Source of the DNA: Streptomyces sp. Je 1-369
GTDB taxonomy: Bacteria > Actinomycetota > Actinomycetes > Streptomycetales > Streptomycetaceae
Assembly: GCF_026810505.1 (NCBI RefSeq)
Contig: NZ_CP101750.1
Span: 6,870,515 to 6,934,514, forward strand
DNA length: 64,000 nucleotides
Direction of reading: 5' to 3'
Shown here in pieces: positions 10,498 through 34,458 of this stretch (position 1 is its first letter; each line of letters starts with the position of its first letter). The notes beneath the pieces were generated by a model. That model was given only the letters and a program-made list of their open reading frames with translations. It ran no database searches and was not told the origin of the DNA. Position numbers and translations under genes: made by a program.

Positions 10498-13029
10498 ATG
10501 GCCATCCGTCGCCTCAGCTACCGGCTCGGCCAGGAGCCGGACACCGGAGCCGTCAGCCTTGTCCCGTCTGACATGGACTCCGCTCAACTCTGCGCGCACG
10601 AAGGGAAGTTGCGTGGCGCCGTTACGCGCGTCATCGGCGTGCCGCCCGCCGGGGATGCGGGGTCCGAGCTGAGCTACAGCCTGCTTCCGGACGGGGGGCG
10701 GCTCCTGTGTGCGGCCCTCCCGGGGCAGCGGGTCGAAGCGCTGCATCTGAGCGCGGACACGCCCGGGCCCGGGCCCGTGTGGCCCATCGACACGTGGCGC
10801 TCCGCGTCGTGGGCGGGGGAGGGAGGCGAGTCCTTGGGCCCGGGCTTCGTCGAGTCCGAACTCCCGGTTCCCGAGGCCCACTTCGACGGTGGACTCCTCG
10901 TCGCGTTCGCCCGGGCGCGCGCCGACCGTGTCGCGCCCTTCCTCGCCGACGTGCGCCGCCTCTTCGAGGACCCCGCCGGGCGGCAGATCGTCCTGGTCGA
11001 GGACGACTCCGGGACCGTGGCCCACTGGATCGCCCTCGCCTGCGCCTCGCTCCCCGAGGCGTACGTTTCGGCGCTGACGTTCACCACCTGGACCGGCGAC
11101 CCGCGTCGCGCCCCGCACCGGATCATCGGCATCGGCCCCGACGCGGAGTTCGACCGGTCCGACGACGCGGTGGTGGAGTACCTGTACCGCGTCCACGACG
11201 GCACGGGCGGCGGCCCCGAGAGCCCGCCCACGGAACCGGACGCCTGGGCCCGGCTGACGGCCGAGCGCTGGCTCACCGGGAACCCACCGCGGCCCCCGCG
11301 CGGGACGGTGACGGGGCCCGAGGGCCCCTTCGCCCTCATCCCGCTGGTCGCGGGGGTGCTGACGGGGGCCGCAGGTGGTGGGGGTGAGGGCGCTGTTGGG
11401 GGTGCGCGCCGTGCTGGGGGTGCGGGCAGTGCTGGGTGCGTTGAGGTGTCTGGGGGTGCCGGGGGCGCTGAGGCCCCCGCAAGCGCCGGAAACCCCGCAA
11501 ACGCCGGAGCCCCCGCTACTGCCCACCATGCCGAGCTCGCCGGGCTGCACGGCATCACCGGCGACACCCTGCGCTCCGTTCTCGACGCCTTCGCCCAGTC
11601 CGTGGCCCGGGGGGAAGCCGACGCCCGTACCCTCGGGGAGCTCGACCGGCTCTGTCGGGGGCTCGACGGGGAGCAGGCCCTCGCGGCGCGACCCCTCGCC
11701 CTCGCCCTCGTCAAGCAGCGGCTCGACGCCTCACGGGGGAGTGGCACGCTCCCCGATCTCGCCGCCTTCGAAGGGCTGCCGCTCGGGCAGGAGGCCTGGC
11801 GGGAGCTGCGTGAGGAGTACGGCGACCGCGCCGACGACGCCCTGCGCGCCCGGCTCCACGGCCCCGTCACCACCTGGACGGAGCCGCTGCGCCTCGCCCT
11901 CGCCGTGGGCGCCGACGGCGGGCCCGGGCTCGCCGAGGCCATGGACCGCCTCGCGGACGCCCTGCTCCACCCGGAGCGGCGCGACTGCGCGCAGGCCGTC
12001 CAGGTGCTGTCCGAGCTCGACCACCTCGCCTTCACCCGTCGCGTGCTCCGGCTCCTCCTCGTGGGGTTCACCGAGCGGAAACTGGACCGCCTGCGCGCCC
12101 TCGCCGACTCGCCCCAGGGCGACTGGCTGCGGCGCAACATCGACGACGCGCCGCTCACCGTCCGCCTCGCCGCGGCCGCCGCGCAGTGGAGCGGCCCACC
12201 GGACCGGCTGCGCGGCGTCGAGCTCTTCGAGCGGCTCACCGGACTCCTCTCCAACCGGCGAGTCGAGGACGTGAAGACGCTCAACCTGCTGTGGCGCATG
12301 GTGTGGCGCAACGACCCGCCGGACCGCGCCGAACAGCCCCGGGTGGCCCGCGCCTGCACCCCGCGCCTCATCATCGAGGCGGACCTCGGCCGCCGCATCA
12401 TGGGGTGGCTCAAGGAGCCGGACCACTGCGACCGCGAACTCGTCGACTTCGCGCGGGAGATGTACAGGGATCCCAAGCTCGGCGCCCAGGACCGTGACGC
12501 CGCGGAACTCCTCGTCATCGCCCAGGATCTCGCCGACGGGCGGATCGCCGTCAGCCGGGCCTCCGTCGCGCGGCTCAGGGAGCTCGGGCGCAAGGTGTCG
12601 CCGCTCGGCATGGTCCTGCGGAAGGGCATCGACGAACGGGTGGGCCGGGCCCTCGCCGGGACCAACCCGCTCGACGTGTGCGAGTCCCACTGCCTGCAGA
12701 TCCTCGTCGCCGCGGGCCCCGACCTCCTCGGCGCCTACCGTGCCCACCTCCTCGAGGAGGGGACGCGCGACCGACTCGACCGTGAGCTGCCCGGCAACCC
12801 CGCCGAACTGGCGGCCTACTTCCACGTCTGGCGGCCCCGCCGACGGCACGGCGTCACCACCGACTGGCGGGACGTCGCCGCCGAACTGCTCGACCAGGTC
12901 CTCGCGCCCGTCCTCGCGCATCTGGACGACCACCGCCTCGGCCAGATCGCCACCGTCCTGCAACGGGAGGGCCAGGGCGTACAGGAATGGACGGCGTGGC
13001 GGCACCGGGTCGCCCAGGAGCAGAGCTGA
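10498..13029 (+). CDS. GAP1-like GTPase-associated protein
   Basis: 843-aa cytoplasmic protein. The N-terminal about 280 residues carry the pattern of the GTPase-associated protein 1 (GAP1) N-terminal domain: RLSYRLGQ, a segment LPEAYVSALTFTTW and HRIIGIGPDAEFDRS. The middle and C-terminal parts are alpha-helical and fit the GAP1-M/GAP1-C arrangement. Between them lies a 60-residue Ala/Gly-rich insert (DNA about 11355-11535). GAP1 proteins are described by comparative genomics as partners of TRAFAC-type GTPases in predicted conflict systems; their biochemical role is untested as far as I know. No GTPase gene is next to it here. It is the first gene of the forward operon, 41 bp upstream of the vWA gene. 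ATG 10498 has only a weak ribosome site, so the start is less certain. Confidence 0.7.
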   Translation: MAIRRLSYRLGQEPDTGAVSLVPSDMDSAQLCAHEGKLRGAVTRVIGVPPAGDAGSELSYSLLPDGGRLLCAALPGQRVEALHLSADTPGPGPVWPIDTWRSASWAGEGGESLGPGFVESELPVPEAHFDGGLLVAFARARADRVAPFLADVRRLFEDPAGRQIVLVEDDSGTVAHWIALACASLPEAYVSALTFTTWTGDPRRAPHRIIGIGPDAEFDRSDDAVVEYLYRVHDGTGGGPESPPTEPDAWARLTAERWLTGNPPRPPRGTVTGPEGPFALIPLVAGVLTGAAGGGGEGAVGGARRAGGAGSAGCVEVSGGAGGAEAPASAGNPANAGAPATAHHAELAGLHGITGDTLRSVLDAFAQSVARGEADARTLGELDRLCRGLDGEQALAARPLALALVKQRLDASRGSGTLPDLAAFEGLPLGQEAWRELREEYGDRADDALRARLHGPVTTWTEPLRLALAVGADGGPGLAEAMDRLADALLHPERRDCAQAVQVLSELDHLAFTRRVLRLLLVGFTERKLDRLRALADSPQGDWLRRNIDDAPLTVRLAAAAAQWSGPPDRLRGVELFERLTGLLSNRRVEDVKTLNLLWRMVWRNDPPDRAEQPRVARACTPRLIIEADLGRRIMGWLKEPDHCDRELVDFAREMYRDPKLGAQDRDAAELLVIAQDLADGRIAVSRASVARLRELGRKVSPLGMVLRKGIDERVGRALAGTNPLDVCESHCLQILVAAGPDLLGAYRAHLLEEGTRDRLDRELPGNPAELAAYFHVWRPRRRHGVTTDWRDVAAELLDQVLAPVLAHLDDHRLGQIATVLQREGQGVQEWTAWRHRVAQEQS

Positions 13030-13070
13030 CCGATGACCACTTCCCCGACCGTTCCCACGAAAGGACCAGC

Positions 13071-13781
13071 GTGAGCGACACCAGCGAGACCGTCGTCGTC
13101 GACAACTTCCCCGGCGGCAGTATGGCGAGCCGCCCCGTGCACTTCATCTGGATGCTCGACTGCTCGGGCTCCATGGGCGTGAACGGCAAGATCGGCGAGC
13201 TGAACTTCGCCATCCGTGAAGCCATCCCGGAGATGCAGCAGGCCGCCCAGTCCAACCCCGCCGCGTCCCTGCTGGTGCGCGCCATCACCTTCGCCAGCGG
13301 AGCCAGCTGGCACGTCGGCGAGCCCACCCCCGTCGACCGGTTCTCCTGGGAGGACGTGCACATCTACGGCGGCACGGACATGGGCGCCGCGTTCAAGCTG
13401 GCGGCCGGCGCGCTGCAGACCCCGCCGATGCCGCAGCGCGCCCTGCCCCCCGTCCTCGCCCTCGCCTCCGACGGGCAGCCCACCGACGACTGGCGGGCCG
13501 GGCTGCGCGCCATCGACAGCACCCCGTGGGGCAAGCGTGCCGTGCGCGTCGCGGTGGCCATCGGTGACGACGCGGACAAGAGCATGCTCAAGGAGTTCCT
13601 CGGCAACCCCGAACTGGAGCCCTTGCAGGCGAAGAACCCGCGCCAGCTCGCCGCCGCCATCCGCTGGATGTCCACCGCCGTCGTCAAGGACGCCTCCACC
13701 CCGAAGGTCGACGACGGCGCGAAGCCCGCGACGCCGATCGATGTACCGTCGATGACCAAGGGCGAAGACGACATCTGGTGA
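13071..13781 (+). CDS. TerY-like von Willebrand factor A protein
   Basis: 236-aa vWA-domain protein with a complete MIDAS metal site: DCSGS (30-34), Thr102 in GGTDMG and Asp134 in ASDGQPTD. This is the TerY family, the scaffold member of the TerY-phosphorylation triad (vWA, PP2C, kinase) described in tellurite/stress-response gene neighbourhoods. It probably binds a partner through its Mg2+ in a phosphorylation-dependent way (family inference). The C-terminal 30 residues are a charged flexible tail ending GEDDIW. GTG at 13071 follows a GAAAGGA site. The stop overlaps the phosphatase start by four bases (GTGA), so the stoichiometry is probably coupled. Confidence 0.88.
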   Translation: MSDTSETVVVDNFPGGSMASRPVHFIWMLDCSGSMGVNGKIGELNFAIREAIPEMQQAAQSNPAASLLVRAITFASGASWHVGEPTPVDRFSWEDVHIYGGTDMGAAFKLAAGALQTPPMPQRALPPVLALASDGQPTDDWRAGLRAIDSTPWGKRAVRVAVAIGDDADKSMLKEFLGNPELEPLQAKNPRQLAAAIRWMSTAVVKDASTPKVDDGAKPATPIDVPSMTKGEDDIW

Positions 13782-33899: not shown

Positions 33900-33933
33900 A
33901 GTCGGCCCCCGATTCCGGTCCGTGGCGGCCGGG

Positions 33934-34458
33934 TCAGCCGGTGGCCTCGTCGAGGACCGAACGCCAGCGGGCCCGGTCGCGGTCGTAGTGCAGCGGTCCC
34001 ACCGAGAACTCCGTGAGGTCGAGCGCGGTGAGCTGCTCGTACGCCTCGGCGGGGAGGTCCGGCTCCAGCACGATGTCGAGGCCGGTGGTCGCGTCCTGCA
34101 GCACGATCGGCCGCGCGGCACCCTCCTCACGGGCCTCCCGGGAGAGCCGTGCGTCCCGTTGCCCCGGCAGGGCGGAGTCACGAGGCGACGCGGGGCGCGC
34201 AGTCCTCCGTACGACACCCCTGAACGCGTCGTACGCGTCCTTGACCGCCTCCGCCCCGAGGCCGGTGAGGAACGCCTGGAGGGGCAGCGAGGCGAGGACG
34301 ATCCAGGGGACGTCGACGGCGCCGCGGTGGTCGACGGTGTGCCGGACACGGACCGGTGGCGCGCCGAGTCCTTCGAAGGCGGCGACCAGCTCGCGGCGGA
34401 GTTCGTCGGGGACCTCGCGGTCCAGGAGCAGCTCCGCTCGCAGCGGCGCATCGGTCAT
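33934..34458 (-). CDS. Unknown 174-aa protein, first gene of the reverse operon
   Basis: Protein of 174 aa with no domain I recognise. Predicted mixed alpha/beta: a ferredoxin-like start ([20 protein letters not shown]), a hydrophobic beta/helix segment ([21 protein letters not shown]), a basic middle and an acidic end ([21 protein letters not shown] ... [11 protein letters not shown]). No signal peptide or membrane helix. ATG at 34458 is the first start after the divergent promoter region shared with the geosmin synthase gene, so it opens the ten-gene operon. Small leading genes of CHAT/TPR loci are often adaptors or effector-associated modules; whether this is one is unknown. Confidence 0.6.

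Follow-up and report, generated by a model that had tools for sequence, protein, structure and literature searches.

GAP1-N2 systems have been predicted from gene neighbourhoods as conflict systems in which GAP1-N2 proteins are combined with DO-GTPases and FNIII proteins (Kaur et al. 2020, PMC7159879). As set out in the main text of that paper, they fall into three non-overlapping themes, which are marked by tubulin, by Hsp70 with GrpE and a second Hsp70, or by a kinase with a PP2C phosphatase and a vWA protein. A literature search that left most subscription papers outside found no functional study of a GAP1-N2 system, and this main text was the only one found to describe relatives of the locus considered here as a GAP1 system. 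The locus lies at positions 10498 to 34458 of a 64,000-nucleotide stretch of Streptomyces sp. Je 1-369 (contig NZ_CP101750.1, positions 6,870,515 to 6,934,514; the whole stretch is called the window, and the host genome is 8.82 Mb in one contig). An initial annotation of this DNA had known of no description of its exact combination of genes, but this view has to be rejected, since the published GAP1-N2 themes, even as given in the main text, cover most of the parts list. What appears to be new relative to that text is that the Hsp70 and kinase themes, listed there as separate, share one locus here. It is proposed, with about even probability, that the locus represents a variant of the predicted GAP1-N2 conflict/stress systems that has no GTPase and has been expanded by chaperones, and that it would act as a phospho-switch anchored in the membrane, with a protease gated by chaperones. 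Comparison of predicted genes supports the architecture well; the mechanism is what we infer from it.

The locus has fourteen genes. Four forward genes converge on ten reverse genes, which run from 34458 down to 16091 in the order sm1, TPR, CHAT-TPR, sm2, GrpE, Hsp70, Hsp70-TPR, the coiled-coil protein CC, a MotB-like protein and a protein labelled "Fn3". The two convergent operons of the initial annotation are thus present with the boundaries it gave them, but its remark that nearly all genes are joined by GTGA/ATGA overlaps was overstated. With gene starts chosen among candidate codons and overlaps computed from the chosen starts, overlaps occur at seven of the nine reverse junctions (4 bases at five of them, 1 base and 8 bases at the others), the remaining two having gaps of 3 and 34 bases, and only one of the three forward junctions overlaps, by 4 bases. 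The forward genes encode GAP1 (10498..13029, +; Pfam GAP1-C 1.6e-62 and GAP1-M 9.4e-22), a stand-alone, TerY-like vWA protein (13071..13781, +; Pfam VWA 0.0047, below cut-off, with the DxSxS site kept), a PP2C phosphatase (13778..14668, +; PF13672, PP2C_2, 3.7e-29, metal-binding motifs kept) and a serine/threonine kinase (14701..16047, +; PF00069, Pkinase, 2.8e-16) with a CxxC...CxxC stretch that looks by eye like a zinc ribbon. Facing them on the reverse strand are "Fn3" (16091..18214), the MotB-like protein (18218..18715) and CC (18712..20091). The 43 bp between the convergent stops (16048..16090, no strand assigned) can form a strong hairpin, a possible bidirectional terminator (RNA fold of 16036-16112, -45.3 kcal/mol, z -2.45). 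GAP1-M, GAP1-C, PP2C_2, Pkinase, CHAT, GrpE and, twice, HSP70 score over the Pfam cut-off; the vWA falls below it and the Fn3 and MotB labels have no Pfam match. Relatives at 29-97% identity retain the gene order, the convergence and the active-site motifs, so that the architecture is not due to chance.

The two halves of the locus were compared in 21 loci, which were obtained by scanning a GTDB-species collection with CC as the query; such a scan reaches close relatives only. Loci and genomes from the searches are numbered with L and G, respectively. The MotB-like and Fn3 genes follow CC in all 20 loci that have sequence there, and kinase and PP2C face this trio in 17 of the 18 loci that reach that far, L026 being the exception. 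The vWA does so in 16 of 17 loci and GAP1 in 15 of 16, these denominators being smaller because L013 and L016 end early; L018 has one additional gene between Fn3 and the kinase. Because kinase and PP2C face CC-MotB-Fn3 so regularly, the halves appear to belong together, and the view that the forward and reverse operons are one unit at the locus is supported. Comparison shows, at the level of predicted genes, a conserved seven-gene core in which CC, the MotB-like protein and the Fn3-position protein face kinase, PP2C, vWA and GAP1, with no double-GTPases.

Among 101 Streptomyces genomes, a vWA of the window type (97-100% identity) occurs in 3, so that the locus is rare; a vWA at 60-62% identity occurs in 11, and one at 31-34% in 2, with one genome belonging to both of these last groups. 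These genome scans scored a limited number of first-look candidates per genome (MotB, 36 Streptomyces and 9 class; GAP1-C, 13; vWA, 28), and since only part of the candidates was scored in many genomes, absences in the MotB, GAP1-C and vWA scans are not proof. Five of the 11 genomes carrying the 60-62% vWA were examined further. In all five, an Fn3-position gene, a DO-GTPase, GAP1-N2, a membrane DO-GTPase, vWA, PP2C and the kinase lie on one strand as one operon, a gene order that is that of the published GAP1-N2 kinase theme. No CC, MotB, CHAT or Hsp70 gene was seen within the 20 kb examined around these five loci; sm2 was found in none of the five genomes, and a MotB-like match was found in none of four of them and, in G089, once at a separate locus. 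The two types share GAP1 and are 60% identical in the vWA, 45% in PP2C, 57% in the kinase and about 31% in the Fn3-position protein. Because the Fn3-position, GAP1, vWA, PP2C and kinase genes make up a single operon in the five genomes, they appear to be one system even without the convergent layout. The initial annotation's proposal turned on the co-occurrence of the two operons. The core halves do stand together in 17 of 18 loci, but the idea that the operons are always together is excluded, both by the 60-62% relatives, which are one operon with DO-GTPases, and by loci that lack the chaperone and protease genes.

No DO-GTPase was found in the stretches examined of any of the 21 window-type loci, even at E 0.1. 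One hidden elsewhere in the window's own genome was considered and rejected: a search of the genome with PF19993 was negative, and the same model finds both GTPases of L045. In addition, the window GAP1 has no Pfam GAP1-N2 match; its N-terminal part aligns with GAP1-N2, and the GNxxxHAV motif is missing. The motif is lacking in all 14 distinct GAP1s of the window type whose N-terminus could be aligned (a count that leaves out L008, which has a broken frame, L018 and L048, which are cut by the contig end, and L041 and L087, which come from the same genomes as L010 and L023), and it is kept in all 7 GAP1s of DO-GTPase loci (as FHAH in L043-L047 and in variant form in L050 and L095). GNxxxHAV was used as the criterion because FHxH, tried as a strictly GTPase-linked motif, failed on recheck: L050 and L095 have DO-GTPases without FHxH, and L049 departs in the other direction (see below). 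The GAP1-C Pfam model was likewise given up as a marker of the core, since most of its matches, which occur in 32 of the 101 genomes, score far above the window type, and divergent members escape it. Given the common genes, the lack of a DO-GTPase and the loss of the GAP1 motif, the locus would be a GTPase-less relative of the GAP1-N2 systems. As the kinase theme is presented in the main text of PMC7159879, the locus agrees with it in being actinobacterial and in having GAP1, a homologue of the Fn3-position protein, a kinase with catalytic residues and zinc-ribbon-like cysteines, PP2C and a stand-alone vWA. It differs in having no DO-GTPase, a decayed GAP1-N2 domain, two convergent operons rather than one, the CC-MotB pair and an added Hsp70/CHAT module.

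The enzymes of the core are predicted to be active. In aligned rows of relatives, several of which derive from one genome with duplicates retained, the vWA metal site reads DCSGS or DCSSS in 20 of 20 rows, the catalytic residues of the kinase (K, RDINWGN and DND) are present in 21 of 21, and the metal-binding motifs of PP2C are retained in nearly all; the cysteines of the kinase, read by eye as a zinc ribbon, are CGACGKQN...CWKC. These motifs, like those of CHAT and Hsp70, are taken in their usual meaning. Thus, kinase, PP2C and stand-alone vWA of the GAP1-N2 kinase theme are all present. The same three enzyme types make up the TerY-P triads (vWA, PP2C and kinase-zinc ribbon) of CoCoNuTs; there, by the account consulted in PMC11090510, the triad is tied to McrBC-type restriction systems, whereas in the window it is tied to GAP1/Fn3 and CC-MotB.

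The remaining seven reverse genes form the Hsp70/GrpE/CHAT module. Hsp70-TPR (20088..22322, -) has an Hsp70 ATPase domain without a substrate domain (PF00012 9.9e-31 over residues 76-343) and a C-terminal TPR part (TPR_8 1.8e-4, below cut-off), and its phosphate-2 loop is degenerate, with GMGYEGFE in 16 of 16 covering rows versus the DLGGGTFD of Hsp70. Upstream of it lie a full-length Hsp70 (22322..24460, -; PF00012 2.6e-113) and GrpE (24457..24888, -; PF01025 2.4e-13), so that Hsp70, GrpE and a second Hsp70 without a substrate domain, as in the GAP1-N2 HSP70 theme, are all found by Pfam. Compared with that theme as described in the main text of PMC7159879, the locus differs in holding both themes together, in the fusion of TPR to the second Hsp70 and in the presence of the CHAT-TPR protein. 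Next come sm2 (24881..25273, -), a small conserved protein of 130 aa with no family above cut-off that serves as a marker of the module, and the CHAT-TPR protein (25270..31242, -), which has a CHAT peptidase domain (PF12770 9.1e-18) with His252 and Cys299 and a long repeat-like C-terminal part; both relative rows that cover the His keep it, as do all three that cover the Cys. The TPR protein (31239..33899, -; TPR_2 1.1e-6) resembles this C-terminal part, and used as a query it aligns to the CHAT regions of relatives at 24-34%; it is the sole gene with TPR over the Pfam cut-off. The first gene of the reverse operon is sm1 (33934..34458, -), a small protein of 174 aa with no Pfam match up to E 5 and with 107 homologues, none of which has a Pfam domain.

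Two observations on module proteins may be added. In 16 of 17 rows, the full-length Hsp70 has an inserted CxxxxC...CxxC stretch, which is conserved and may be a zinc ribbon; the exceptional row is taken to be the Hsp70-TPR of L012, wrongly picked. In addition, L050:3076-10382 holds an Hsp70-like gene, a DO-GTPase, GAP1 and a membrane DO-GTPase in a row, which resembles the published Hsp70 theme.

Comparison shows that this module, comprising Hsp70, GrpE, Hsp70-TPR, CHAT-TPR, TPR, sm1 and sm2 as predicted, is present in only part of the tree. Hsp70-TPR stands directly upstream of CC in 14 of the 21 loci, and in the other 7 (L017, L018, L020, L022, L025, L026 and L028) no module gene is found upstream of CC. 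The "one machine" of the initial annotation is therefore not supported as stated for the chaperone-CHAT part, which is dispensable. On a core tree that was rooted on L028 by choice, the deepest branches are among those without the module, as is one nested group joined at a weakly supported node (0.65); one gain and one loss of the module would explain this tree, and two gains would do so as well. Just upstream of the module-free CC-MotB-Fn3 genes of L028, a protein at L028:9271-9942 has a weak match to the metal-binding TerY_C (E 2.7e-4, below cut-off).

Taken together, these results lead to a model in which CC and the MotB-like protein would form a membrane platform, with the C-domain of the MotB-like protein outside and facing the wall and the coiled coil of CC in the cytoplasm. 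This platform would stand in for the membrane GTPase in sensing or anchoring, and both GAP1/Fn3 and the vWA-kinase-PP2C switch would read its state. The CHAT-TPR peptidase may then be held inactive by phosphorylation and by Hsp70-GrpE cycling, the degenerate Hsp70-TPR serving as a scaffold for the TPR proteins. Upon stress or invasion, released CHAT-TPR would cleave cellular or module proteins, leading to a growth stop or cell death. We infer the steps from membrane to protease in this way, and a role in phage defence would be a reasonable guess from the argument made in the main text of PMC7159879.

Several findings weigh against this model. The core apparently does not need the protease, since the module can be absent. 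In L026, CC-MotB-Fn3 is kept with no such vWA in the genome. Correlated distances, between the two halves (r 0.95, 18 taxa) and between the module and the forward genes (r 0.98, 12 taxa), would speak for the model, but they are confounded by species history, which alone can yield the former. In L049 the GAP1-N2 motif persists in its FHxH form although the 20 kb examined there show no DO-GTPase, and thus GAP1 motif and GTPase are not strictly tied. The "Fn3" protein has no fn3 match in Pfam; it is about 30-31% identical to the protein in the same position of the five GAP1-N2/DO-GTPase operons, which also lacks a Pfam match, and its FNIII look is presumed by eye. PADLOC, applied to ten of the fourteen proteins (all but vWA, PP2C, GrpE and sm2), returned single-domain matches, namely, for the kinase (PD-T4-6, 4e-16, and mad6), the coiled coil (ZorA and JetC), Hsp70 and CHAT (BovA). 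Finally, the ten other genes of the window that were scanned are mostly metabolic, transport or regulatory, and the locus lies in no defence-island context, at a chromosomal site that is conserved in several Streptomyces.

Such a setting is what makes a serious rival, albeit one we consider unlikely, of the idea that the locus serves Streptomyces as a housekeeping machine for development or the cell envelope, acting in hyphal wall or membrane stress and protein turnover rather than in conflict. The conserved position and its neighbours favour this idea, as do the predicted membrane pair, the chaperones and the protease. The locus has the same borders in G088 and G363 as in the window, namely, a hydrolase and/or P450-like gene to its left and a bifunctional terpene synthase to its right, and in L008, L014, L015 and L027 the hydrolase adjoins GAP1 too; the flanking genes are those which we take to be geosmin synthase, alpha/beta-hydrolase and P450. 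Furthermore, CC has no match in the plasmid collection, and the N-terminus of CHAT matches only 5 plasmids, at 33-50% coverage and <60% identity, so that plasmid spread was rejected. However, the distribution is patchy (a MotB-like profile match in at least 7 of 101 Streptomyces and at least 13 of 393 class genomes, beside the 3 of 101 with the window-type vWA), and because of this a housekeeping machine would be unusual.

In another interpretation, likewise improbable in our judgement, two separate systems occupy one chromosomal site: a signalling core of GAP1, kinase and CC-MotB, and an Hsp70-CHAT module for protein quality that is independent of it and has come to lie in the same operon. 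This would account for the 7 loci without the module. A search for sm2 found it absent from 6 of the 7 module-free genomes, with a marginal match (E 9e-4) in the seventh, whereas three module-bearing genomes matched clearly in the same search; thus, sm2 is not clearly elsewhere in the module-free genomes. Homologues of sm1 in Pseudonocardiaceae, Amycolatopsis, Glycomyces and Actinoplanes imply that parts of the module may exist elsewhere. Against two separate systems, sm2 is found in 3 of the 101 Streptomyces genomes, the same 3 as the window-type vWA; the Hsp70-TPR/CC junction and most neighbouring junctions overlap; and Hsp70, GrpE and a second Hsp70 are a GAP1-N2 theme in their own right according to the main text of PMC7159879. 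In G077, forward genes and module are found on two small contigs, with no MotB match.

It is also conceivable, though doubtful, that CC-MotB is an ion-driven 5:2 motor or stator of the same type as ZorAB, GldLM and ExbBD, by which the system would be powered or gated. Like ZorAB, MotAB, ExbBD and GldLM (the topology of GldL being taken as generally known), the pair joins a long-coiled-coil partner with more than one transmembrane helix to a one-helix protein with an invariant transmembrane Asp and an OmpA-like predicted domain, and the two genes adjoin wherever both could be placed. From alignment and model, CC is predicted to have an N-terminal helical domain, two transmembrane helices and a long cytoplasmic coiled coil (hydropathy gives two helices in 3 of 4 homologues scored and one in the fourth), with a conserved Pro and Thr-Trp in the first helix. 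The MotB-like protein has a basic N-terminus, one transmembrane helix with G-W-L-F-A-D, a linker and the C-domain; the Asp of G-W-[LIV]-F-A-D is invariant in every covering row, and the beta-alpha-beta-alpha-beta-beta order of the C-domain gives the predicted OmpA-like fold. SiiA is its first Foldseek match (E 2e-3), OmpA, MotB and SiiA are among its VIA matches, and ExbD is the first of two matches to PDB profiles (E 0.68). In addition, the two helices of CC could correspond to the two channel-lining A-subunit helices, by the account consulted in PMC12505986. On the other hand, the locus differs from these complexes in that CC has only two predicted transmembrane helices, and homology to MotB is unsupported, as the MotB-like profile does not match 13 actinobacterial MotB proteins significantly (P 0.36). 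Pfam gives no MotB, OmpA or MotA/ExbB match in the pair. The fold scores of the C-domain are middling and non-specific, with CagT and chorismate mutase as high as OmpA and FtsZ next after SiiA in Foldseek. The fold search with the CC model gave no significant match, the PADLOC match of CC to ZorA covers the coiled coil only (E 2.9e-6, counted weak), and ZorC, ZorD or ZorE was not found among the ten proteins scanned. On balance, these comparisons are at most suggestive of a stator-like complex.

A bolder proposal, which we regard as quite improbable, is that CC-MotB is an undescribed minimal (two-helix plus one-helix) ion-driven, wall-sensing actinobacterial membrane complex that plugs into double-GTPase/GAP1, kinase-PP2C-vWA and dynamin/SrfB switches and here replaces the GTPase, coupling the state of membrane or wall to a chaperone-gated caspase-like protease; if true, this would be a bacterial inflammasome-like device powered by the proton gradient rather than by GTP. 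Under the preferred reading as a GTPase-less GAP1-N2 variant, the locus can be viewed as a natural experiment, in which the GTPase is missing, the N-domain of GAP1 has decayed, the membrane pair is present and the protease module occurs in part of the tree, and it thus offers a sequence in which the sensing, the switching and the acting parts could be told apart.

CC-MotB recurs beside GAP1-N2 with a GTPase, beside kinase triads and beside dynamin/SrfB-like genes, and would thus be a recurrent membrane module linking systems so far listed apart. The word MotB is absent from the main text of PMC7159879; the pair could be drawn in its figures or supplement. Two class-genome profile matches (L097 and L099) have no CC or MotB at the thresholds used. 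At L095:8422-18739, an FNIII-looking protein without a Pfam match is followed by GAP1-N2, a DO-GTPase2, CC, MotB and a kinase-like gene, apparently a GAP1 system with both GTPase and membrane pair; L094 is similar by clustering. At L036:8556-13117, and also in L037, L038, L089, L091 and partly L090, CC-MotB is followed by vWA, PP2C and a short kinase-like gene, with no GAP1/Fn3. The kinase-like protein gave no Pfam match in the cases tested, and BLAST aligns it with the window kinase at 27-29% identity; the set looks like a five-gene system of its own. CC-MotB lies beside a dynamin-like GTPase and a SrfB-like protein (weak Pfam) at L039:3343-11725, with an Hsp70-like gene nearby on the opposite strand and traces of the arrangement in L040; the comparison presumes that SrfC is dynamin-like. 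At L098:9592-16746, a kinase-like gene, a DO-GTPase2-like gene (19 bits, below cut-off) and a gene for 931 aa precede CC-MotB on one strand, and L096 has a related pair. At L093:9421-14798, CC-MotB is followed by a kinase-like gene and a SNF2-type helicase (Pfam).

Two minor observations concern the right end of the locus. The placement of sm1 ahead of the CHAT gene recalls the EACC1-caspase two-gene system (system 4 in the main text of PMC7159879), where a small 5' gene precedes a protein with an N-terminal caspase-superfamily domain, for which CHAT would be the counterpart here. However, here the TPR gene intervenes, and the likeness is an analogy of position only; an EACC1 identity of sm1 has no support from Pfam, which gives no match in sm1 or its homologues. 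Beyond sm1, and divergent from the reverse operon, the bifunctional terpene synthase (window ~34690-36957) has two Terpene_syn_C_2 stretches and adjoins sm1 in G088 and G363 as well.

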